Shown: positions 6,091-16,828 of the stretch, piece after piece
How positions within the stretch are numbered: the first letter of the stretch is position 1
How the letters are laid out: each line of letters begins with the position of its first letter
Assembly (NCBI RefSeq): GCF_900475285.1
Contig: NZ_LS483370.1
Location: forward strand, 2,928,001-2,992,000
Source of the DNA: Pseudomonas taetrolens
GTDB taxonomy: Bacteria > Pseudomonadota > Gammaproteobacteria > Pseudomonadales > Pseudomonadaceae
Reading direction: 5' to 3'
DNA: 64,000 nucleotides
Notes under the pieces: model-generated
Databases searched by the model: none
The model's input: only the letters and a program-made list of their open reading frames with translations
What the model was told of the DNA's origin: nothing
Position numbers and translations under genes: made by a program

Positions 6091-7445
6091 TGCACGGCCT
6101 CCACGGGGATCAGTTCCTGCTCGGCGGCATCGGCCTTGAGCATCACTTCCTGCCAGTACTTGTGTTGCAGCACGAACAGGCCCTCATCTTCGGTACGCAC
6201 ACCTGACAACAACGGTTTGAGATCGATCTCTTTGGCGGCCTCGTCGGCCCCCTCGACCCAGTGAGTCGCGCCGCGAGACATGTCGTTCCAGCCGCGGCCG
6301 GCACCGTAGCCAGTCTGGCAGGAGCGGAACTCCTCAAGGTCATCCGGGGTGGCCATGCCACTGACATTGAAAAAGTCTTCGTACTGGCGAATACGCTTGG
6401 TACGGGCTTCACTGCTCTCGCCCTTGGGTGCGATGCAGTAAATGGTGATTTCGGTCTTGTCGACAGAGATCGGCCGGGCGATACGGATTTGCGAACTGAA
6501 CTGGTCCATCAGGTAAACGTTCGGGTACAGGCACAGGTTGCGCGAGTTCTCGATCATCCAGTCAGCACGGGCCTTGCCGAAATCGCGGGCCAGCTCATCG
6601 CGACGCTCATAGGCCGGACGGTCTTCAGGGTTGGCCCAACGGGTCCAGAGCAACAAATGGCCATTGTCGAAGGAATAGAAACCACCGCCGCTCTTGGCCC
6701 AGCTGCCAGCGCTCATGGTTTTGATTTCTTCGCCGGCTTCACGCAACGCGCGCTGGTTTTGAGTCGCCGCGTAATTCCAGTGCACGGAGCTGACGTGGTA
6801 GCCATCGGCGCCATTCTCGGCGGCGAGTTTCCAGTTACCCTCGTAGATATACGAGCTGGAACCGCGCAGGACTTCCAGGCCCTCCGGCGACTGGTCGACG
6901 ATCATGTCAATGATCTTCGCCGACTCGCCCAGGTGCTCGGCGAGCGAGGTCACGTCCGGGTTCAGGCTGCCGAACAAAAAGCCGCGATAGGATTCAAAAC
7001 GCGCGACCTTGGTCAGATCGTGGGAGCCTTCACAATTGAAGCCTTCAGGGTAGCCGGCTTCGCTCGGATCCTTGACCTTGAGCAGCTTGCCACTGTTGTT
7101 GAACGTCCAGCCGTGGAACGGGCAGGTATAGCTGGAACGGTTGCCGGTCTTGTGCCGGCACAACATCGCACCCCGGTGGCTGCAGGCATTGAGGAACGCA
7201 TTCAACTCACCGGCCTTGTTGCGCGCGATGAAGATCGGCTGGCGCCCGATGGTGGTGGTCAAAAAGTCGTTGATATTGGGGATCTGGCTTTCGTGCGCCA
7301 GGTAGATCCAGTTGCCCTCGAAGATGTGTTTCATTTCAAGGTCGAAAAGACGAGGATCCGTGAACATTTCCCGCTTGCAGCGGTGGACGCCCTTCTCCTT
7401 GTCTTCCTCAAGCATGGCATTCAAGTAATCGATTCCCAGGGACAT
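6087..7445 (-). CDS. benA: Benzoate 1,2-dioxygenase large (alpha) subunit
   Basis: Catalytic subunit that adds O2 to benzoate to give the cis-diol carboxylate. The 452-residue protein has a Rieske centre (Cys88, His90, Cys108, His111 in CSHRG and CPFHGW) and the mononuclear iron site of the C-terminal domain (bridging Asp214, His217, His222 in [11 protein letters not shown]). It is the first gene of the operon; a BenR-type promoter lies at 7482-7544. The start has GGAG about 10 bases upstream. Confidence 0.97.
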
Positions 7446-7481
7446 GGCCAGGGCCTCCGTTGTTATTGTTCAGGCCTGATC

Positions 7482-7544
7482 AGAGTAGGGAGTCGATACC
7501 CACGGCAATATCCAATTACTGCAGATCGCTATCCGTTTACCGCA
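7482..7544 (-). promoter_or_regulatory. benA promoter with two BenR half-sites
   Basis: On the minus strand two direct repeats fit the XylS/BenR motif TGCA-N6-GGNTA: TGCGGTAAACGGATA (7544-7530) and TGCAGTAATTGGATA (7523-7509). They are exactly 21 bp apart, the spacing known for the XylS sites of the TOL Pm promoter. The proximal repeat overlaps by two bases a possible -35 (TATTGC, 7510-7505), followed by 17 bases and a -10-like TACTCT (7487-7482). The weak -35 is what an activator-dependent promoter would show. The transcription start is inferred. Confidence 0.85.
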
Positions 7545-7565
7545 GAGGGCGTTTGAGATTCAGTT

Positions 7566-8000
7566 CAGGTCTCTCGGGGTGTCAGGTTTTATGGCCGCAA
7601 GCGGACGCGGCCTCGTTCTACTCGTCCGCTGCTACAGATCACGCGCCTCATTCGCCAGCGGCGACAGGTGTTCGTAGCAGTTGACGAGCTCAGCGAGGCT
7701 ACGTCCGGCTGCGCAGCAGTCGTCAGTTCAGGTCTCTCGGCGGGTCAGGTTTTATGGCCGCAAGCGGACGCGGCCTCGTTCTACTCGTCCGCTGCTACAG
7801 ATCACGCGCCACATTCGCCAGCGGCGACAGGTGTTCGTAGCAGTTGACGAGCTCAGCGAGGCTACGTCCGGCTGCGCAGCAGTCGCCAATCCAGGTCTCT
7901 CGGCGTATCAGGTTTTAAGGCCGCAAGCGGACGCGGCATCGTTCTACTCGTCCGCTGCTACAGATCACGCGCCACATCACCTCTGTCGCCGCTGACGAGG
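7566..8000. repeat. Tandem repeat, 163-bp unit, two full copies and a partial third
   Basis: Copies begin at 7566, 7729 and 7892, each with the same opening (CAGGTCTCTCGG), giving a constant 163-bp period. Copies 1 and 2 are nearly identical; copy 3 matches up to about 7975 and then diverges. Each unit contains an inverted repeat (GCGGACG ... CGTCCGC). Similar GC-rich hairpin sequences are scattered in fluorescent Pseudomonas genomes. The period is not a multiple of three and no reading frame seems conserved, so this is probably non-coding repeat DNA between benA and benR. Confidence 0.9.
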
Positions 8001-8016
8001 CACGAAGGCTACTGCA

Positions 8017-8973
8017 TCAGTGGCGGCGTTTGAGGGTATTGGAAGGGAGCTCGCCAAATTGCTGGCGATAGCTGTCAGAAAAGCGCCCGAGGTGCAGAAA
8101 ACCGTAGTCCAGGGCCAGCTCGGTGAGGCTGCGCACTGAACAGCTCGGATCGCTCAGGCAACTGTGGATCCGCTCCAGCTTGCGCTGGCGGACATACTGC
8201 AACGGGGTCACGCCCAGTTCCCGCTCGAACAGCACATACAAGGAACGCTGGCTCATGCGGGCTTGCGCCGCCAGGTCTTCGGCACCGAGGTCCTGTTTCA
8301 GGTTGCGCTCGATGTAATCAAGGATGCGCTCGATGCTGGCGCTCGGCGACGCCAGGCATTCGCGGGTGATGTTGGTGGTCATGAGCGTCAACAGTTTGCT
8401 GCCGACAATCTGCGTGTAGTGTTCCTGCACCCGCAACAGCGGGTCGATGGCCTCGGATTCCTGACAGACCATCGCGAGCAGGCCGAGGAATCCCTCCAGC
8501 TCATCAAGCTGGTAATGGTTGCGCAAAAAGCGCACACCGCCGGCCGGGCGTTTCCAGCGCTGCTCGTCGCAGACCGATTCGAGCACCGTGACCGGCAGCT
8601 TGAGGATGAATTTTTCGCAATCCTGCGAGTAGGTCAGGTCGACCGGATCATCCGGGTTGATCAGCAACAGCTCGCCCGGCACCAGATAGTGCTCGCGCTT
8701 GGGGCCGCGCCACAGGCAATTGCCACGCAGCAGCACCTGCAGGTGGAAGATGCTTTCCAGGGCTGGCGACGTCACACGCACACTGCCGCCGTAGCTGATA
8801 CGGCACAGGTCAAGCTCGGCAAATTTGCGGTGGTTGAGGCTGGCCTCGGGACGGGTGGTCCTGGACAGGCCGATACAATGCTGGCCGACATGCTGGTTCA
8901 CATAGTCAGACACGGCATGGGGGTCTGCGTGTCGGAACACGCTACTGCGCTCACTCAGCAGGCGGCTATCCAT
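8017..8973 (-). CDS. benR: AraC/XylS-type activator of benzoate degradation
   Basis: A 318-residue regulator of the XylS/BenR group: long N-terminal effector domain (about 1-205) followed by two helix-turn-helix motifs (about 225-318, MSQRSLYVLFERELGVTPLQ and LHLGRFSDSYRQQFGELPSN). BenR binds benzoate and activates benA. Its matching operator pair lies upstream of benA at 7509-7544. The gene is on the same strand, upstream of the operon and separated from it by the repeat block. No separate CatR gene is present, so BenR may drive the whole benABCD-catBCA unit. Confidence 0.94.
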   Translation of the reverse strand: MDSRLLSERSSVFRHADPHAVSDYVNQHVGQHCIGLSRTTRPEASLNHRKFAELDLCRISYGGSVRVTSPALESIFHLQVLLRGNCLWRGPKREHYLVPGELLLINPDDPVDLTYSQDCEKFILKLPVTVLESVCDEQRWKRPAGGVRFLRNHYQLDELEGFLGLLAMVCQESEAIDPLLRVQEHYTQIVGSKLLTLMTTNITRECLASPSASIERILDYIERNLKQDLGAEDLAAQARMSQRSLYVLFERELGVTPLQYVRQRKLERIHSCLSDPSCSVRSLTELALDYGFLHLGRFSDSYRQQFGELPSNTLKRRH

Positions 8974-9225
8974 CGGCTAGGCACTCAATCAATTTTTTTA
9001 ATTATTTTGCTCATCATGCACGCCAGAGTACCTACGTGCGGGCTGACATATCAATTAGATACTCGGCCAACAGGCCGATAACCGAACACTATCCGCCCAG
9101 TGGTTGAGCTGTTGCCCATTCCGCAAAAAAACATGATTCCGGGCGATTACCGGCCATCTGCCTTTGTCCCGTTCCGCGCCTCGACATACTCTGCCTCCTC
9201 TAAAAATAATCCCACGAGCACTTCC

Positions 9226-10560
9226 ATGTTTATGCGTCTACGCCCTGCCCCTTTGTACCTTGCGTTGTTCAGCGCACTGACGGCCACCACCAGCCAGGCG
9301 GCCGATCCTGCCTGGGTCGATCCAGCGGTTGCGTCGGTCAATCAGGACGTTATCGCCCTGCGCCACACAATTCATCAGCACCCCGAACTGGGTAACCTGG
9401 AGTTCAAGACCGCGGCCCTGGTGGCCGAACAGCTCAAGGCCCTGAACATCGACGTGCGCACCCAGGTCGGCAAGACCGGTGTCGTCGGTGTCCTCAAGGG
9501 CGGCCTGCCCGGCCCGGTCGTGGCCCTGCGCGCCGACATGGACGCCCTGCCCGTCAAGGAGCTGACGGGGCTGTCTTTTGCCAGCAAGGCCAGCGGCATA
9601 CGCCAGGGTAAAACGGTCCCGGTGATGCATGCCTGCGGTCACGACACCCATACCGCGATGTTGCTGGGCGCAGCCAAGGTGCTGGCCCAACACCGCGATC
9701 AAGTGCGAGGCACAGTGGTGTTTTTGTTTCAGCCCGCCGAAGAGGGGGCTGCCGACGTGGACGAATTCCAGAGCGATACGCTGATTGGTGCGCAAGCCAT
9801 GATCCGCGATGGCGCGCTGGACTCGCCCAAGGTTGAAGCCATCTTCGGCGTACACGTGATGGCGGGCTATCCGACCGGCCACCTGTATTACAAAGCCGGC
9901 ACCGTGCTCAACAGCAGCGACGCCTTCCGCATCAGCCTCAAGGGCCGGCAGACCCATGGCTCGGCGCCCTGGAGCGGGGTTGACCCGATAGTCGCCAGCT
10001 CGGCGGTGATTGGCGGCCTGCAGACGCTGGTCAGCCGACGTGTCGACCTCAGCCAGGGCATGGGCGTCATCAGCGTTGGCACCCTCAATGGCGGCTCTGC
10101 AGCCAACATCATCCCCGAAACCGTGGAAATGACCGGGACCATTCGCAGCAACAACGCGACTATCCGCGATACCCTCCTGAAAGAAATGCCGCCAATGGTC
10201 CAGGGCATCTCCAACGCCTATGGCACTGAAGCGAAACTGGTAGTGGCCAATATTGCGCCGGTCACGCGCAATGACCCGAGCCTGACCGAAGCCATGATCC
10301 CGGCGCTGGAACGGGCGGCCCCGGGCAAAGTGCACGCGCTGACCTCTTCCCTGTCCCCCAGCGAGGACTTCTCGTATTACGCACAAAAAGTCCCGGGGCT
10401 GTTCGTGTTTCTGGGAGCTACCCCCGAGGACCAGGACATGAGCAAGGCTGCAAACAATCACAGCCCCTACTTCACCGCCGACGATGCAACCCTGGCCACC
10501 GGGGTTAAGGCCCATGTGCAGTTCGTGCTGAACTACCCGGACCGCGCTGACAAGTCATGA
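9226..10560 (+). CDS. Exported M20-family amidohydrolase
   Basis: A 444-residue M20D peptidase/amidohydrolase, as in N-acyl amino acid or hippurate hydrolases. Residues 1-25 form a Sec signal peptide ending TTSQA-AD. Di-metal site features are visible: Cys137 and His139 in HACGHDTH, Glu172-Glu173 in QPAEEG, a His in FGVHVM, and a late DFSYYAQKVPG segment. I chose the ATG at 9226 rather than the in-frame one at 9100 because it starts directly at the signal peptide. A downstream periplasmic racemase is on the same strand, suggesting linked metabolism of periplasmic amino acids or amides. The substrate is not defined by sequence. Confidence 0.85.
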   Translation: MFMRLRPAPLYLALFSALTATTSQAADPAWVDPAVASVNQDVIALRHTIHQHPELGNLEFKTAALVAEQLKALNIDVRTQVGKTGVVGVLKGGLPGPVVALRADMDALPVKELTGLSFASKASGIRQGKTVPVMHACGHDTHTAMLLGAAKVLAQHRDQVRGTVVFLFQPAEEGAADVDEFQSDTLIGAQAMIRDGALDSPKVEAIFGVHVMAGYPTGHLYYKAGTVLNSSDAFRISLKGRQTHGSAPWSGVDPIVASSAVIGGLQTLVSRRVDLSQGMGVISVGTLNGGSAANIIPETVEMTGTIRSNNATIRDTLLKEMPPMVQGISNAYGTEAKLVVANIAPVTRNDPSLTEAMIPALERAAPGKVHALTSSLSPSEDFSYYAQKVPGLFVFLGATPEDQDMSKAANNHSPYFTADDATLATGVKAHVQFVLNYPDRADKS

Positions 10561-10695: not shown

Positions 10696-10740
10696 AGCGC
10701 ACAGGCGCGCCCAAAAAAATAATGCATGGAAATTCAGATA

Positions 10741-11970
10741 ATGCCCTTCTCCCGTACCCTGCTCGCCCTTTCCCTTGGCATGGCATTGCTGCAAAACCCG
10801 GCCTTTGCTGCGCCACCCCTGTCGATGACCGACGGCGTAGCTCAAGTGAATACCCAGGACAGCAATGCCTGGGTCGAAATCAATAAAGCCGCGTTCGAGC
10901 ACAACATACGGACTCTGCAAACCGCCCTCGCCGGCAAGTCGCAGATCTGCGCCGTACTCAAGGCGGATGCCTATGGCCACGGTATCGGCTTGTTGATGCC
11001 CTCGGTGATCGCCATGGGTGTTCCCTGTGTCGGTGTCGCCAGCAACGAAGAAGCCCGCGTCGTGCGCGAGAGCGGTTTCAAGGGTCAACTGATACGCGTG
11101 CGCACCGCTGCCCTGAGCGAACTGGAAGCTGCACTGCCGTACAACATGGAAGAGCTGGTGGGCAACCTGGACTTCGCGGTCAAGGCCAGCCTGATTGCCG
11201 AGGATCACGGTCGCCCGCTGGTGGTGCACCTGGGTCTGAATTCCAGCGGCATGAGCCGTAACGGAGTGGACATGACCACCGCTCAGGGCCGTCGTGATGC
11301 GGTAGCTATCACCAAGGTGCCAAACCTGGAAGTGCGGGCGATCATGACCCACTTCGCGGTCGAAGATGCTGCCGACGTGCGTGCCGGGCTCAAGGCCTTC
11401 AATCAGCAAGCCCAATGGCTGATGAACGTGGCCCAGCTTGATCGCAGCAAGATCACCCTGCACGCGGCCAACTCGTTCGCCACACTGGAGGTGCCCGAAT
11501 CGCATCTGGACATGGTCCGCCCCGGCGGCGCGCTGTTCGGCGACACCGTACCGTCCCACACCGAGTACAAGCGGGTCATGCAGTTCAAGTCCCACGTGGC
11601 GTCGGTCAACAGCTACCCCAAGGGCAACACCGTCGGTTATGACCGCACGTACACCCTGGGCCGCGACTCGCGGCTGGCCAACATCACCGTCGGCTACTCT
11701 GACGGCTACCGCCGCGCGTTTACCAATAAAGGGATTGTGCTGATCAACGGCCATCGCGTGCCAGTGGTGGGCAAAGTCTCGATGAACACCCTGATGGTGG
11801 ACGTCACTGACGCGCCGGATGTGAAAAGCGGCGATGAAGTGGTGCTGTTCGGGCACCAGGGCAAGGCCGAGATTACCCAGGCTGAGATCGAAGACATCAA
11901 CGGTGCACTGCTTGCGGATCTGTATACCGTGTGGGGCAATTCCAACCCTAAAATCCTGAAAGATCAGTAA
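10741..11970 (+). CDS. alr: Periplasmic broad-specificity amino-acid racemase
   Basis: PLP-dependent fold-type III racemase of the Alr/Bsr group. With the ATG at 10741 it is 409 residues, the same length I recall for the periplasmic P. putida broad-specificity racemase. Residues 1-24 are a signal peptide (ending AFA-APP), unlike cytosolic alanine racemases. The PLP lysine is Lys74 (AVLKADAYGHG), the catalytic Tyr is in NTVGYDRTY, and SMNTLMVDVT is the second active-site loop. It would make D-amino acids such as D-Lys, D-Arg or D-Ala in the periplasm. GGAAA lies about 8 bases before the start; an in-frame ATG at 10726 lacks such a site. The symbol bsr would also fit. Confidence 0.9.
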   Translation: MPFSRTLLALSLGMALLQNPAFAAPPLSMTDGVAQVNTQDSNAWVEINKAAFEHNIRTLQTALAGKSQICAVLKADAYGHGIGLLMPSVIAMGVPCVGVASNEEARVVRESGFKGQLIRVRTAALSELEAALPYNMEELVGNLDFAVKASLIAEDHGRPLVVHLGLNSSGMSRNGVDMTTAQGRRDAVAITKVPNLEVRAIMTHFAVEDAADVRAGLKAFNQQAQWLMNVAQLDRSKITLHAANSFATLEVPESHLDMVRPGGALFGDTVPSHTEYKRVMQFKSHVASVNSYPKGNTVGYDRTYTLGRDSRLANITVGYSDGYRRAFTNKGIVLINGHRVPVVGKVSMNTLMVDVTDAPDVKSGDEVVLFGHQGKAEITQAEIEDINGALLADLYTVWGNSNPKILKDQ

Positions 11971-12278: not shown

Positions 12279-14189
12279 ATGAGTACACATTCCTTGGCGG
12301 ACGGGCTGGTGTTTCCCATGCACCGCGGCCCCTTCCAGAACAACGGCGCCTCACCGTGGTACGCCACCGTCACCGTGGGCACCCCACCTCAACCGCTGAA
12401 GCTGGCGATCGACACCGGCACCCACATCACCTGGGTGTCGTCGACACTTTGCCCGCCTGACCAATGCCAGCATTTCGCGGGCAATCGCTTTGATTACCTG
12501 GCCTCCCGGACCTTTGCCTTCAGAGACAGCACGCAGCACCCGTTCAGCTTCGGCCCCTGGGGCACGATGCAGGTGGAGTACGGGGCCGACGTGGTGACGA
12601 TGCCCAATGGTGCCGCACTGGAGATGGAGCTGTTTCTGGCGGCCCATTACGCGGGCAAGCAGTTTCGCCAACTGGACTGGGACGGCGGAATCGGCCTGCC
12701 CTCGAGCGCCCCTGACCTTGAAAGTCATCCATCACTGCTGTTCCAGGCGTTGCTGGAAAATGGACAGATCAACCCGGACCAACCCTATGTCAGTTTCGAC
12801 TGGGACCCGCTGACCCGTCGCGGCAGTTGCCGGATGGGCGCCGTGGAGGCGTCGAAAATCCAGGGCCCCCATGTGTTCCTGCCGTGGTCGCCGTACCTCG
12901 CGCAACCCGGCATGGAATACATCTGGTCGACTGAACTGAACAGCTACTCGGTCAACGGCGAAACCCTGGCGACCGATATCAGCTTTGCCCTGGACTCCGG
13001 CTCCTCCCGATTCAAGGGCGATGACCGGTTGATGCGGCAAACCCTGGAACGCATTACCCACGGAGGGGATTCGCAGGTCGTCCTCGGTTTTGCCGACGGC
13101 GAGATCACTCTGGGGCCCGATCAGTACAATGTGCTGATTGAAGAAGGACCGGAGCACGGTCAGACACGTCCGCAGTTCGAGCCGATTGGCCTGCCCGATC
13201 TGGTGCTGGTCGGCTCGCTGGTGATGGAGCATTGCTACACGGTTTACGAGTACCGGGTCGTCGCGGGCAGGTCGCACGGCCATTCACTCGAACCCGTCGG
13301 CATCTGGCTGTTCAATCGCCCCGACGGCCCCCGGATCATCAGCCGTTCTTCGTCACGCCGTTTCACCCCCGGCTTGCCAGCCAAGCGGCCAATCCCGCCC
13401 GACTCTGCAGGGTCGGTGGCCGGTACCTGGAAAAACGACTACGGCTCGATGATGACCCTCAGCGTTTCCGGCAATCGGGTGAGCGGTCTTTATCAGTCCT
13501 CGACCGGGGCCACCGGAACCTATGAAGTGAGCGGATTCCAACTGGGTACCGACCCGGCGCACAACCTGGGACGGCCCGTGGCCCTCGCCATCGGCTGGCA
13601 AACCATAGACAAGACACCGGCCGTCCCCAGCAGGAACTGGTCATCCGGGCTGTGCGGCCAGATCAGCGTCATCGGCACTGAAGAAGTGCTGACGCTCTCA
13701 CATTTGCTGGTGGCGAGCAGCGACTTCCCGGGGGTGTTCAACCAGGGTAACTACATCGACAAACTGGTCTATCGGCGTTCCCCACCCCTACCCAACGCAA
13801 CCGCGACTGTTGTCGTACCCCGACGATCCACGACGAAGAACCCCTTGAGCGGCAACTGGAAAGCCGCAGACGGGACACGCCTGAAACTGACTGTCGACGC
13901 TGCCGGGCCAGACCTGCCGGGCCGGGTCCACGGCTATCTAAGCTCCGCACAGGGCCAGACCGAGGTCTGCGGCTTCACCGACATCAGTGCTTCGGCCAGC
14001 GACCTGACCTTGCAGTCCGTGAGCATCAACGCCGTGCAGGCTTCGAGCGTCATGTCTTTGTGCGGCGCGCTGAACCTCAAGGATGACGTTCTGAATCTGC
14101 TGATTCTTACCAGTGCGCCGACGCCCCCCACGCAAACCTATGTGCAAACGCAAATTGCCCCGATCGCGTTCAAGCGCAAGCCTCGCTAG
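12279..14189 (+). CDS. Pepsin-like A1 aspartic peptidase fused to avidin-like domains
   Basis: A 636-residue fusion. Residues about 20-350 look like a bilobed pepsin: first catalytic motif Asp45-Thr-Gly, flap Tyr101 (VEYGADV), DGGIGLPSS at 135-143 matching the pepsin DGILGLA loop, second motif Asp239-Ser-Gly-Ser, and a VLVGSLVMEHCYTVYEY end segment. The 194-residue Asp spacing is near pepsin (183). No signal peptide or propeptide is seen. Residues about 377-500 resemble streptavidin: GTWKNDYGS (Asn386, Ser390), Tyr405, Trp440, Trp454 and Asp494 fall where biotin-contact residues lie, but the Trp108 and Trp120 equivalents seem replaced by His475 and Phe487. Residues about 523-632 look like a more degenerate second copy. 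Its end overlaps a convergent LysR gene by 20 bases. Domain calls are by eye; biotin binding and proteolysis are inference. Confidence 0.78.
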   Translation: MSTHSLADGLVFPMHRGPFQNNGASPWYATVTVGTPPQPLKLAIDTGTHITWVSSTLCPPDQCQHFAGNRFDYLASRTFAFRDSTQHPFSFGPWGTMQVEYGADVVTMPNGAALEMELFLAAHYAGKQFRQLDWDGGIGLPSSAPDLESHPSLLFQALLENGQINPDQPYVSFDWDPLTRRGSCRMGAVEASKIQGPHVFLPWSPYLAQPGMEYIWSTELNSYSVNGETLATDISFALDSGSSRFKGDDRLMRQTLERITHGGDSQVVLGFADGEITLGPDQYNVLIEEGPEHGQTRPQFEPIGLPDLVLVGSLVMEHCYTVYEYRVVAGRSHGHSLEPVGIWLFNRPDGPRIISRSSSRRFTPGLPAKRPIPPDSAGSVAGTWKNDYGSMMTLSVSGNRVSGLYQSSTGATGTYEVSGFQLGTDPAHNLGRPVALAIGWQTIDKTPAVPSRNWSSGLCGQISVIGTEEVLTLSHLLVASSDFPGVFNQGNYIDKLVYRRSPPLPNATATVVVPRRSTTKNPLSGNWKAADGTRLKLTVDAAGPDLPGRVHGYLSSAQGQTEVCGFTDISASASDLTLQSVSINAVQASSVMSLCGALNLKDDVLNLLILTSAPTPPTQTYVQTQIAPIAFKRKPR

Positions 14190-15042
14190 CCTCGCTGCAA
14201 CTGGCCTGGCACAGCTCACGCAACTGCTGCACGAGCTCCTTGCCTGCCCGGCTCAGGCCACTGCGCGCATACAGCGCCAGACGCACCCCCTGAATATCCG
14301 GCAAGCCGCTGCCGGCCGCGAGTATCCGGTGCCCGGTGCCCACCACCCGCACCGGCAACAAACTGATACCCAGCCCGGCGGCCACGGCGGCGCACACACT
14401 GGCCAGGCTTGAACTTGAATAACCAATGCGCCAGCGCCAGTCATTGACCTCCAGGTGATACAGCATTTCGTGACGATACAATCCGCCGACCGGGAACGTC
14501 ACCAAAGGCAACGGATCCCGGCCCAGGGCTGGCGTGCTGTCGCTGTCAACCCAGCACAGCGGTTCCGGCCAGGACACCAGGCAATCGTCGCTGGCTCCCA
14601 TCTGCTTGACCAGCAACAGGTCGAACTCACCCCGCCGATAGAGCCGGGTCAACTCTGGCCCGAGACCACTGGTGACCTCCAGGCGCACACTCGAATGCTC
14701 CAGGCCAAAGCGTGACAGCAAAGGCATCAGGCGCTCGGCGGCAAAGTCCTCCGGAACCCCAAGGCGCAACACCTCTTCGTTTTGCTGGTGGAGCAGTACA
14801 TCACTCGCCTCTTCATGCAGGGCCAGGATGCGCCGGGCGTAACCCAACAGCCGTTCGCCCTCGGCCGTCGCCTGCACCCGGCGCTGATCCCGGTCGAGCA
14901 ACTTGCAATCCAGGCCCTGTTCAAGGCGCCGCACTTGCTGGCTGACGGTGGATTGTGTGAGGTGCAGGCGTTCCGCGGCCCGGGTGAAGTTGGCGCAATC
15001 CACCACCGCGACAAAGCTGCGTAACAACTGGGGGTCGAACAC
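14170..15042 (-). CDS. LysR-family regulator
   Basis: A LysR protein of about 290 residues: N-terminal winged helix (FVAVVDCANFTRAAERLHLT, then QSTVSQQVRRLE) and a C-terminal substrate-binding domain. I place the start at the GTG at 15042, with AGGA 11 bases upstream and normal LysR phasing (FDPQLLRSF); an ATG at 15075 would add 11 residues without a ribosome binding site. It diverges from the deaminase/MFS pair and probably controls it. Its 3' end overlaps the pepsin-avidin gene by 20 bases. Confidence 0.9.
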   Translation of the reverse strand: MFDPQLLRSFVAVVDCANFTRAAERLHLTQSTVSQQVRRLEQGLDCKLLDRDQRRVQATAEGERLLGYARRILALHEEASDVLLHQQNEEVLRLGVPEDFAAERLMPLLSRFGLEHSSVRLEVTSGLGPELTRLYRRGEFDLLLVKQMGASDDCLVSWPEPLCWVDSDSTPALGRDPLPLVTFPVGGLYRHEMLYHLEVNDWRWRIGYSSSSLASVCAAVAAGLGISLLPVRVVGTGHRILAAGSGLPDIQGVRLALYARSGLSRAGKELVQQLRELCQASCSEASEACA

Positions 15043-15174
15043 GAGGTCACCATTCCTGATGCCACTGATTGGCATGATTATATTTAATTTCAGAATACAT
15101 CAGTCACTGACCATACTCGCACCTCATCAAAGATGACTGCGATCGCCTCTTCAACCAGACCCAGGAGCGTCCCG

Positions 15175-15636
15175 ATGCACGACGATCAACACTACCTGCA
15201 GCATGCGATCACCTTGGCCCGACGCAATGTCGAAGCCGGTGGCCGACCGTTCGCTGCGCTGCTGGTACGCGACGGCCAGGTGCTGGTCGAGGCCGTCAAC
15301 GAAATCCACCTCAGTCAGGACCCCACCGCCCATGCCGAATTGCTGGCGATTCGTGCGGCGAGCCGGCAACTGGGGGCACGCCTGGATGACTGCGTGATTT
15401 ATGCCACCGGCCAGCCCTGCCCGATGTGCTTGAGCGCCCTGTATTTATGCGGTATCGCCCGCGTGGTGTTTGCCGCCAGTAACGAAAGCGCTGCCGCGTT
15501 CGGCCTGTCGACGGCAGCCATCTACGAACAGATCAGCCTGCCCCTGAAGGACCAGCGCCTGCCGATACAGCATGTGCCCCAGGCCAGCATGACCGCGCTC
15601 TATCACGACTGGCAGGCCCGCCATGCCGGTCACTGA
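15175..15636 (+). CDS. Cytidine/guanine deaminase-like nucleobase deaminase
   Basis: A 153-residue CDA-superfamily zinc hydrolase. The zinc site is explicit: His53-Ala-Glu55 and Pro-Cys82-Pro-Met-Cys85. The closest types are guanine deaminases and tRNA-adenosine-deaminase-like nucleoside deaminases. AGGAG lies 8 bases before the ATG at 15175; the in-frame ATG at 15133 has no such site. Its end overlaps the MFS gene by 14 bases, so the two are probably translated together, pointing to use or detoxification of a purine or pyrimidine analogue. Confidence 0.88.
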   Translation: MHDDQHYLQHAITLARRNVEAGGRPFAALLVRDGQVLVEAVNEIHLSQDPTAHAELLAIRAASRQLGARLDDCVIYATGQPCPMCLSALYLCGIARVVFAASNESAAAFGLSTAAIYEQISLPLKDQRLPIQHVPQASMTALYHDWQARHAGH

Positions 15637-16828
15637 GTCGAACCTGCGCCGCCTGGGCGCCTGGGCACTGCTGATTGCGCTGGGGCTCAACCTGCGGCCG
15701 TTGCTGAGTTCCATCAGCCCGCTGTTGATGGACATCCGCGACGCCACCGGCATGAGTTTCAAAAGCAGCGCGTGGCTCACCGGCCTGCCCGTGGTGTGCA
15801 TGGGCCTGGTGGCGTTGTTCGGGATTCGCCTGGAAGCGCGACTGGGCCAGCGGCGTGGCGTGGCCTTGGGCCTGGCGATGATTCTGCTGGCCTGCGCGGC
15901 GCGGTTGCTGTTCAGCCAGGCCAATGCCCTGCTCACCACCGCTTTGCTCGGTGGCGCGGGCGTGGCCCTGATCCAGGCACTGGTGCCGGGCTTGATCAAG
16001 CAGCAGTTCCAGCAACGGGTGGCGCTGGCGATGGGGGTCTATTCGGCCTCGCTGATGGGCGGCGGCGGTCTGGCCGCTCTGTTCAGCCCTTGGGTGGCCA
16101 ACCACTTTGGCCAATGGCAGGCCGGGCTCGGAGTGTGGCTGATACCGGCAGCGCTGGCCCTGCTGCTGTGGTGGCGATTGCCCTTCAGCGCCCGCCCCAA
16201 GGTTTCGACCCGCTCGCCCGATGCCTTCTGGCACAACCGCAGAGCCTGGTTGCTGGCGCTGTACTTTGGTCTGGTCAATTGCGGGTACATGAGCATGGTG
16301 GCCTGGCTACCGGCCTACTACCTGCAACTGGGATGGAGCGCCACCCAGAGCGGCACCCTGCTGGCGTTCATGACCATTTTCCAGGTCATCGCCGCCCTGC
16401 TGATGCCAGCGCTGGCGCAACGCCAGACCGATCGCCGCCTGCTGCTTGCCATCAGCCTCAGCGCCCAGGCCATCGGCTTTGCCGGCCTGGCCTTGTGGCC
16501 CCTGCAAGCCCCGCAACTGTGGGTCGCGCTGATCGGCTTCGGGCTGGGCGCCTGCTTTGCCCTGAGCCTGATCCTCACCCTCGACCACCGACGCGACCCG
16601 CAACAGGCCGGGCAACTGGCGGCGTTCGTACAGGGCATCGGCTTTTTGATCAACGCCCTGTCACCCTGGATGAGCGGCTGGCTACGGGAGCTTACCGGCA
16701 GTTTCGTCAGCGCCTGGTGGGTGCTCATCATCACCGTACTGACGATGCTGATCCTGACCCGTCGGTTCAGCCCGGGCAGCTATCGGGAGGCTCCGCCCGC
16801 TACGGCGTGTGCCGTGCATGCCGGTTGA
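15623..16828 (+). CDS. MFS transporter, CynX/NimT type
   Basis: A 401-residue carrier with about 12 hydrophobic segments. The start LGLNLRPLLSSISPLL is typical of the cyanate/2-nitroimidazole transporter branch (CynX, NimT/YeaN). It overlaps the deaminase gene, and both diverge from a LysR regulator, which suggests it imports or exports the deaminase substrate or product. Substrate specificity cannot be read from sequence. Confidence 0.87.
   Translation: MPVTESNLRRLGAWALLIALGLNLRPLLSSISPLLMDIRDATGMSFKSSAWLTGLPVVCMGLVALFGIRLEARLGQRRGVALGLAMILLACAARLLFSQANALLTTALLGGAGVALIQALVPGLIKQQFQQRVALAMGVYSASLMGGGGLAALFSPWVANHFGQWQAGLGVWLIPAALALLLWWRLPFSARPKVSTRSPDAFWHNRRAWLLALYFGLVNCGYMSMVAWLPAYYLQLGWSATQSGTLLAFMTIFQVIAALLMPALAQRQTDRRLLLAISLSAQAIGFAGLALWPLQAPQLWVALIGFGLGACFALSLILTLDHRRDPQQAGQLAAFVQGIGFLINALSPWMSGWLRELTGSFVSAWWVLIITVLTMLILTRRFSPGSYREAPPATACAVHAG

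Follow-up and report, generated by a model that had tools for sequence, protein, structure and literature searches.

The window analysed here, a stretch of 64,000 nucleotides from Pseudomonas taetrolens, harbors an open reading frame (12279..14189) that encodes a protein of 636 amino acids. The protein is composed of a pepsin-like A1 aspartic peptidase domain (residues about 5-350, 12291..13328), a linker (residues about 357-379, 13347..13415), a first avidin barrel in which the pocket is kept (residues about 380-502, 13416..13784), and a second in which the pocket residues are lost (residues about 522-634, 13842..14180); these and all other features of the gene lie on the + strand. The letters preceding its ATG are acggaatctccc, and the Shine-Dalgarno sequence, judged by eye, is weak. 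Directly upstream lies a gene (10726-11970) whose product belongs to the alanine racemase family and starts with a signal-like stretch, and further upstream one for an M20 family amidohydrolase/carboxypeptidase (9100-10560). Beside the fusion (14170-16828) are a LysR regulator (- strand), a TadA-like deaminase (+) and a gene of the CynX-type cyanate transporter family (+). Relatives of this trio adjoin the fusion in P. weihenstephanensis (L006), in a rearranged order.

A database search with the fusion protein, in which the 7996 candidates with the most words in common were scored, returned at least 247 relatives at E ≤ 1e-3. Among the best 120 of these 247, 83 (P0002-P0084) are 54-97% identical over 98-100% of the length, and all named organisms among the 83 are Pseudomonas. 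Next come single-domain pepsins of about 50-56% identity, the named ones belonging to sphingomonad-type genera. Because relatives are intact across more than 600 residues, a chance or wrong-frame ORF was rejected, and conserved antisense ORFs across the gene were taken to reflect conservation of the coding strand.

An earlier note on this DNA had described a peptidase joined to two avidin-like barrels and had proposed structure prediction, profile searches and a survey of Pseudomonas genomes as checks. The N-terminal part matches Pfam Asp (PF00026) at 69.1 bits against a cut-off of 19.9 (E 6e-19), and the stretch 380-450 matches Pfam Avidin (PF01382) above its cut-off (E 2.8e-6). The predicted structure has a bilobed A1 fold and eight strands in each barrel, and hhalign relates the second barrel to the first. 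The observation of a peptidase joined to paired avidin barrels is thereby confirmed, and it is near certain that one protein combines an A1 pepsin-like peptidase with two avidin-type barrels. The linker is predicted with pLDDT below 50 at residues 367-374, and at a pTM of 0.58 the placing of the pepsin relative to the avidin part is poorly defined. A search with the whole-fusion profile found no PDB chain at 1e-20. As the VIA-align rows for the whole fusion were pepsins only, structure prediction and search were repeated with the avidin part by itself, and barrel 1 alone yielded no more than weak avidin matches.

The pepsin-like domain

The two Asp-Thr/Ser-Gly motifs typical of A1 peptidases are found within the bilobed fold. 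Conservation was followed in 85 alignment rows and at 45 loci, namely the window and 44 loci from a scan of genome contigs whose patterns fall within the pepsin part, which places avidin-only genes outside the scan. Catalytic Asp45 (Asp-Thr-Gly, 12411..12413) and Asp239 (Asp-Ser-Gly-Ser, 12993..12995) are Asp in 85/85 rows and 45/45 loci, and Cys58 and Cys63 (12450..12467), which we take to be the equivalent of the first pepsin disulfide, Cys45-Cys50, are both Cys in 85/85 and 45/45. The Gly residues of both catalytic motifs, Trp52 (presumably pepsin Trp39), and Gly312 of the hydrophobic loop are likewise invariant at all 45 loci. A second pair, Cys84 and Cys330 (columns at 12528-12530 and 13266-13268), is jointly present or jointly absent in 83/85 rows, which suggests that the two residues form a disulfide; the window protein itself carries Ser and Gly at these columns.

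A flap tyrosine (pepsin Tyr75) is usual in A1 peptidases, yet not strictly defining. Aligned to chymosin, its place is occupied by Phe91 of a Phe91-Gly-Pro-Trp94 (FGPW) motif (12549..12560), with F91 at 44/45 loci (Y in one) and W94 at 45/45. The motifs listed in the earlier note were right with the exception of its flap residue, Tyr101, a position that is Tyr in 1/85 rows and that is rejected in favor of Phe91. The window pepsin thus differs from chymosin (PDB 8cik, 1cms) in having Phe for the flap Tyr, in its FGPW flap motif and in having neither prosegment nor signal. Shewasins A and D are likewise A1 pepsins without signal peptide or prosegment, a likeness drawn from their description, which in the parts of the source consulted mentions no avidin part (PMC4814920).

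With Phe at the Tyr75 position in 44/45 loci, and with the pepsin domain dispensable in four of the HyuA clusters described below, the domain might be regarded as a pseudo-peptidase that serves as a binder or scaffold. This we regard as improbable, as the catalytic Asp pair, the motif Gly residues, Trp52 and Gly312 are all invariant at 45/45 loci and are rarely kept by dead copies. The reading preferred here is that the domain would act as a peptidase.

The two barrels and the ligand pocket

Streptavidin residue labels and roles, as we have assigned them to the barrel positions (N23, S27, Y43, S45, G48, W79, W92, W108, W120, D128), were followed through a chosen set of 58 sequences, which is made up of the window, 28 of the 34 avidin-search matches, some of them fragments of fused proteins, and 29 stretches of loci. 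The set leaves aside the proteins P0090, P0097, P0104, P0130, P0151 and P0152, and the loci L004, L007, L013, L018, L022, L023, L025, L027, L035, L036, L039 and L044. All 58 chosen rows match PF01382 at E ≤ 0.01. Asn386, Ser390, Tyr405 and Ser407 (N23, S27, Y43 and S45; 13434..13499) are conserved in 57/57, 57/57, 58/58 and 58/58, respectively, and the equivalents of G48, W79 and, likely, D128 in 58/58 of this set. Asp494 (13758..13760), the likely D128, is paired Asp to Asp in one alignment and not in two MAFFT runs. Barrel 1 thus carries the ureido-ring contact set (N23, S27, Y43, S45, D128) in the 58 sequences; among loci outside the set, D128 is not clearly kept in L035, L036, L039 and L044.

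The tryptophans that close the biotin pocket are in part replaced, as the earlier note had suspected. The W108 position is His475 in the window (13701..13703), His in 48 and Asn in 10 of the 58, and no Trp is found at the residues nearest W120 in the same set. From the biotin-stacking set (W79, W92, W108, W120), W79 alone is clearly kept (58/58). The assignment of W92 to Trp454, as in the earlier note, depends on the aligner: hhalign supports it, and MAFFT and HMMER select Leu458 and set Trp454 near S88. Six of six single-barrel bacterial avidins, two of them rhizavidin-like by eye, have Trp at the W108 column occupied by H475, in three MAFFT modes and in agreement with hhalign; the HMMER alignment shifts this position by one residue, to L476. 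These avidins share the barrel and keep N23 and S27 (6/6), and differ from the fusion in having one barrel and in retaining the Trp that barrel 1 has lost. Outside the 58, the W108 column is Tyr in L035 and L036 (Oleiagrimonas) and Asn in L039 and L044.

The kept ureido positions and W79 are consistent with barrel 1 binding biotin, which would aim the protease at biotinylated proteins or make it a biotin-linked defence protein (cf. Laitinen et al.). In the parts of that study drawn on here, extended-clade avidins are judged potent biotin binders, rhizavidin binds biotin tightly without the help of a neighbouring subunit, and the peptidase fusion is tied to a possible defence function; mobile-element GO terms and two for defence are reported as enriched in the vicinity of avidin genes (PMC8033661). 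Against biotin stand the His or Asn at W108 in 58/58 and the lack of a Trp near W120. Furthermore, no biotin gene is present among the eight Hyu-cluster proteins scanned, and a cytosolic, signal-less biotin trap would be expected to burden its maker. A defence role finds no match in PADLOC (0 families at E ≤ 1e-3), and a defence or phage protein was rejected in view of the absence of PADLOC or PHROGs matches. Taken together, biotin is an unlikely ligand.

Barrel 2 aligns to barrel 1 with an hhalign probability of 96.1% (E 3.1e-9), against 0.3% for a reversed control, and its N23 position is Ala in 71/85 rows. These are properties of a degenerate avidin copy, presumably derived by internal duplication. 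The avidin part may consequently be a natural single-chain pseudo-dimer joined to an A1 aspartic peptidase, in which barrel 1, with its ureido-contact set, would be the ligand site and barrel 2 would act as partner subunit. A comparable arrangement is the engineered single-chain dimeric streptavidin, scdSav (PDB 6s50, 6s4q), to which the fusion avidin is 17% identical; it differs in being natural, in carrying a peptidase, and in having W108 and W120 replaced. The loss of the pocket in barrel 2 could also indicate that the tandem has a purely structural or oligomerising role and binds nothing, as in sea-urchin fibropellin, whose avidin domains do not bind biotin according to the consulted parts of PMC8033661. 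This is improbable as well, since the barrel 1 pocket residues, unlike those of barrel 2, are invariant across 58 chosen sequences reaching down to 24% identity, and since the tandem avidin occurs without pepsin in four HyuA clusters. A ligand-binding pseudo-dimer is therefore the reading that we favor.

Fused, split and avidin-only forms

The fusion as such is already known and not novel, as Laitinen et al. 2021 described proteins in which an A1 peptidase precedes avidin, in species including P. fluorescens, P. veronii and Oleiagrimonas soli (PMC8033661). The protease-avidin fusions of the "extended" and beta6 clades in that paper have the same order of A1 peptidase and avidin, and two of our loci belong to its species (L011, P. 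veronii; L036, O. soli). It further describes C-terminal extensions of about 150 residues in additional species, in which no domain was found, and its main text, in the parts consulted, makes no mention of an adjacent peptidase gene, a tandem barrel or a hydantoinase link. It was the sole source for "protease-avidin" in the open-access literature searched.

The pepsin and avidin parts are fused at 21/45 loci, and a separate avidin gene follows directly downstream of the pepsin gene at 19/45, with gaps of -55 to +55 bases by mechanical calculation (no value for L022). One locus of the 45, L042 from Euryhalocaulis, has its avidin gene before the pepsin gene (7998-10128), and four (L020, L032, L033, L043) have no avidin at E ≤ 1e-3. 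At L020, the joined pepsin-scan match reaches query residue 435 despite the lack of an avidin match at that threshold; this locus combines pepsin with hyuAB in a MAG labelled Bifidobacteriaceae, the contig being possibly misbinned. In a Sphingomonadales MAG (L017), two tandem avidin genes (7030-7818 and 9139-9960) flank one pepsin gene. On a 45-row pepsin tree with a midpoint root and several flagged long branches, the fused label requires at least five changes, gains or losses (bootstrap 5-5; 0/500 shuffles as low). Judged by this tree, fusion or fission of the pepsin/avidin pair is recurrent, a pattern in favor of joint action by its two members.

The Pseudomonas survey found the tandem avidin in 15/398 genomes, 11 with the full fusion and 4 with avidin only, and the tandem profile matched 6 of 398 Pseudomonadota genomes, one of them weakly. 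Two avidin-only genomes carry "stop inside" flags; in G263 the match lies within an uninterrupted frame of 271 aa, and G015 has an open frame of 259 aa. The 398-genome and 44-locus surveys overlap (G136, G233, G208, G237, G303 and G067 correspond to L003, L004, L005, L008, L010 and L012), and L087 likewise corresponds to L039.

The window protein has no visible signal peptide, in line with the earlier note, and the same holds for 41/45 pepsins, assessed by eye and from hydropathy with the start closest to the domain taken as the N-terminus; in L024 and L037, hydrophobic stretches precede that start. Signals are present in the pepsins of L039, L042, L043 and L044, and in the avidin of L044. These four loci form the most divergent clade, a designation that depends on the midpoint root and on 26-29% identity. 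The pepsin of L042 has a lipoprotein-like signal (LLPAAC) and its avidin has none, which is at odds with the two forming one complex. The missing signal indicates that the window protein may be cytosolic, whereas disulfides point to an oxidising place. Shewasin D, a signal-less bacterial pepsin, is mostly cytoplasmic, and shewasin A is inactive at pH 6, according to the consulted parts of PMC4814920; a neutral cytosol would thus suit pepsins poorly.

Ring-opening gene clusters and the candidate ligand

The usual Pseudomonas cluster comprises a LuxR-type regulator, HyuA, HyuB, sometimes an M24 aminopeptidase, a 321-aa protein, an Asp/Glu/hydantoin racemase-family protein and an MFS transporter, followed by pepsin-avidin. 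The regulator is MalT-like in a fuller sphingomonad copy of the cluster, and the Sphingomonadales and related clusters contain a TonB receptor, the MFS query being without a match there. hyuA and/or hyuB lie within 8 kb at 14/15 Pseudomonas loci and 8/29 other loci, and three of the four most divergent loci carry hyu genes (L042, L043, and L044 with hyuB only). Orthologous HyuA (at least 1197 bits) is encoded in 13/398 Pseudomonas genomes, the same 13 as the 321-aa protein. The distance to the fusion or avidin gene is 5.0-6.4 kb for HyuA and 2.3-2.4 kb for the 321-aa protein. The hypergeometric p for this linkage is 1.3e-22, with related genomes treated as independent. In these 13 of 398 genomes, the 321-aa protein is found each time in the avidin cluster, 4/13 matches being flagged with one stop. 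Visual inspection of its frame in L011 (4639-5604) indicates a likely signal peptide, and neither Pfam nor NCBIfam gives a match at E ≤ 1e-3.

In four of the 13 cluster genomes the tandem avidin lacks a pepsin, the surrounding 14 kb giving no match to one at E ≤ 0.01. Among the 15 tandem-avidin Pseudomonas genomes, two have the fusion without the cluster, the window genome and G243. The window genome gives no HyuA match with a query that finds 60/398 Pseudomonas genomes at E ≤ 1e-100, and the gene in L006 and in G243 has no HyuA nearby; the linkage is therefore not obligatory. HyuA proteins 52-53% identical occur without any tandem avidin in G172, G265, G331 and G339.

HyuA-type enzymes open lactam and hydantoin rings in an ATP-dependent manner, and lactamases or cyclic dipeptide hydrolases may lie behind many oxoprolinase annotations, as described in the consulted parts of PMC6061476. 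The nearest solved protein to the cluster HyuA is the N-methylhydantoinase 7hk5 (381 bits). Caprolactamase was rejected as its identity, as the best NCBIfam match, CapA, scores 488 bits, under the cut-off of 1000. The nearest solved relative of the cluster racemase is fungal OpaE, followed by hydantoin and allantoin racemases. Avidin and hydantoinase/oxoprolinase were not found together in the open-access literature, among the matches listed.

A different type of neighbour is seen at 16/29 non-Pseudomonas loci, either a PAS-GGDEF protein upstream or a hybrid kinase with a GGDEF-type response regulator downstream (Pfam was run on five representatives, and the L027 sequence ends too early to classify). 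The genera are Marinomonas, Vibrio, Enterovibrio, Psychromonas, Aliivibrio and Oleiagrimonas; L032 and L033, among the 16, are without avidin, and L086 shows the same neighbour type. The ligand-bound pepsin-avidin might accordingly report to diguanylate cyclases in a c-di-GMP or kinase circuit, the HyuAB link being a lineage specialty. This is highly improbable, as the 15 Pseudomonas loci give only weak matches, 3-5 kb off, in L007 and L013, and hyuA and/or hyuB linkage extends to the most divergent clade (L042, L043, L044).

We return to the reading that the protein is an A1 pepsin fused to a single-chain avidin pseudo-dimer, with barrel 1 binding a cyclic ureide or lactam that places or switches the peptidase; it is the explanation we favor, tentatively and at somewhat less than an even chance. 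The proposed ligand is small and contains a cyclic ureide or lactam, for instance a hydantoin or a diketopiperazine; it is suggested by the location of the tandem avidin within HyuA/HyuB clusters in most Pseudomonas and several further lineages, and by the replacement of biotin-stacking Trp residues. Once bound, it would either bring the peptidase to peptides that bear the ligand or switch its activity. The substrates of HyuA are not readable from sequence, and this ligand class is put forward as the most likely candidate. Counting against it are the lack of HyuA in the window genome, the four genomes with HyuA and no tandem avidin, the GGDEF or hybrid-kinase neighbours at 16/29 non-Pseudomonas loci, the four HyuA clusters without pepsin, the unequal signals at L042 and the poor fit of a pepsin to a neutral cytosol. 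Of the two proposals in the earlier note, the better fit is a barrel that has been repurposed for another ligand, rather than a protease recruited to biotinylated proteins, since the tandem avidin lies in Pseudomonas HyuA/HyuB clusters and does so also without a peptidase. The broader proposition, that a one-site single-chain avidin dimer has left biotin, recognises HyuA/HyuB-related cyclic ureides or lactams, and targets or gates a cytosolic pepsin in many lineages, is rather doubtful.

Beyond the published fusion, the pairing of the barrels and the HyuA/HyuB linkage in relatives point to a small-molecule partner that may not be biotin. The bacterial role of avidins is not settled, and linkage to a ring-opening cluster offers a candidate ligand class. 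If barrel 1 does bind cyclic ureides or lactams, the avidin fold would have a non-biotin role, and the family would supply natural single-chain, one-site avidins of the kind built by engineers. If, in addition, the pepsin is active and ligand-controlled, this would constitute a new mode of regulation for an A1 peptidase without a propeptide.
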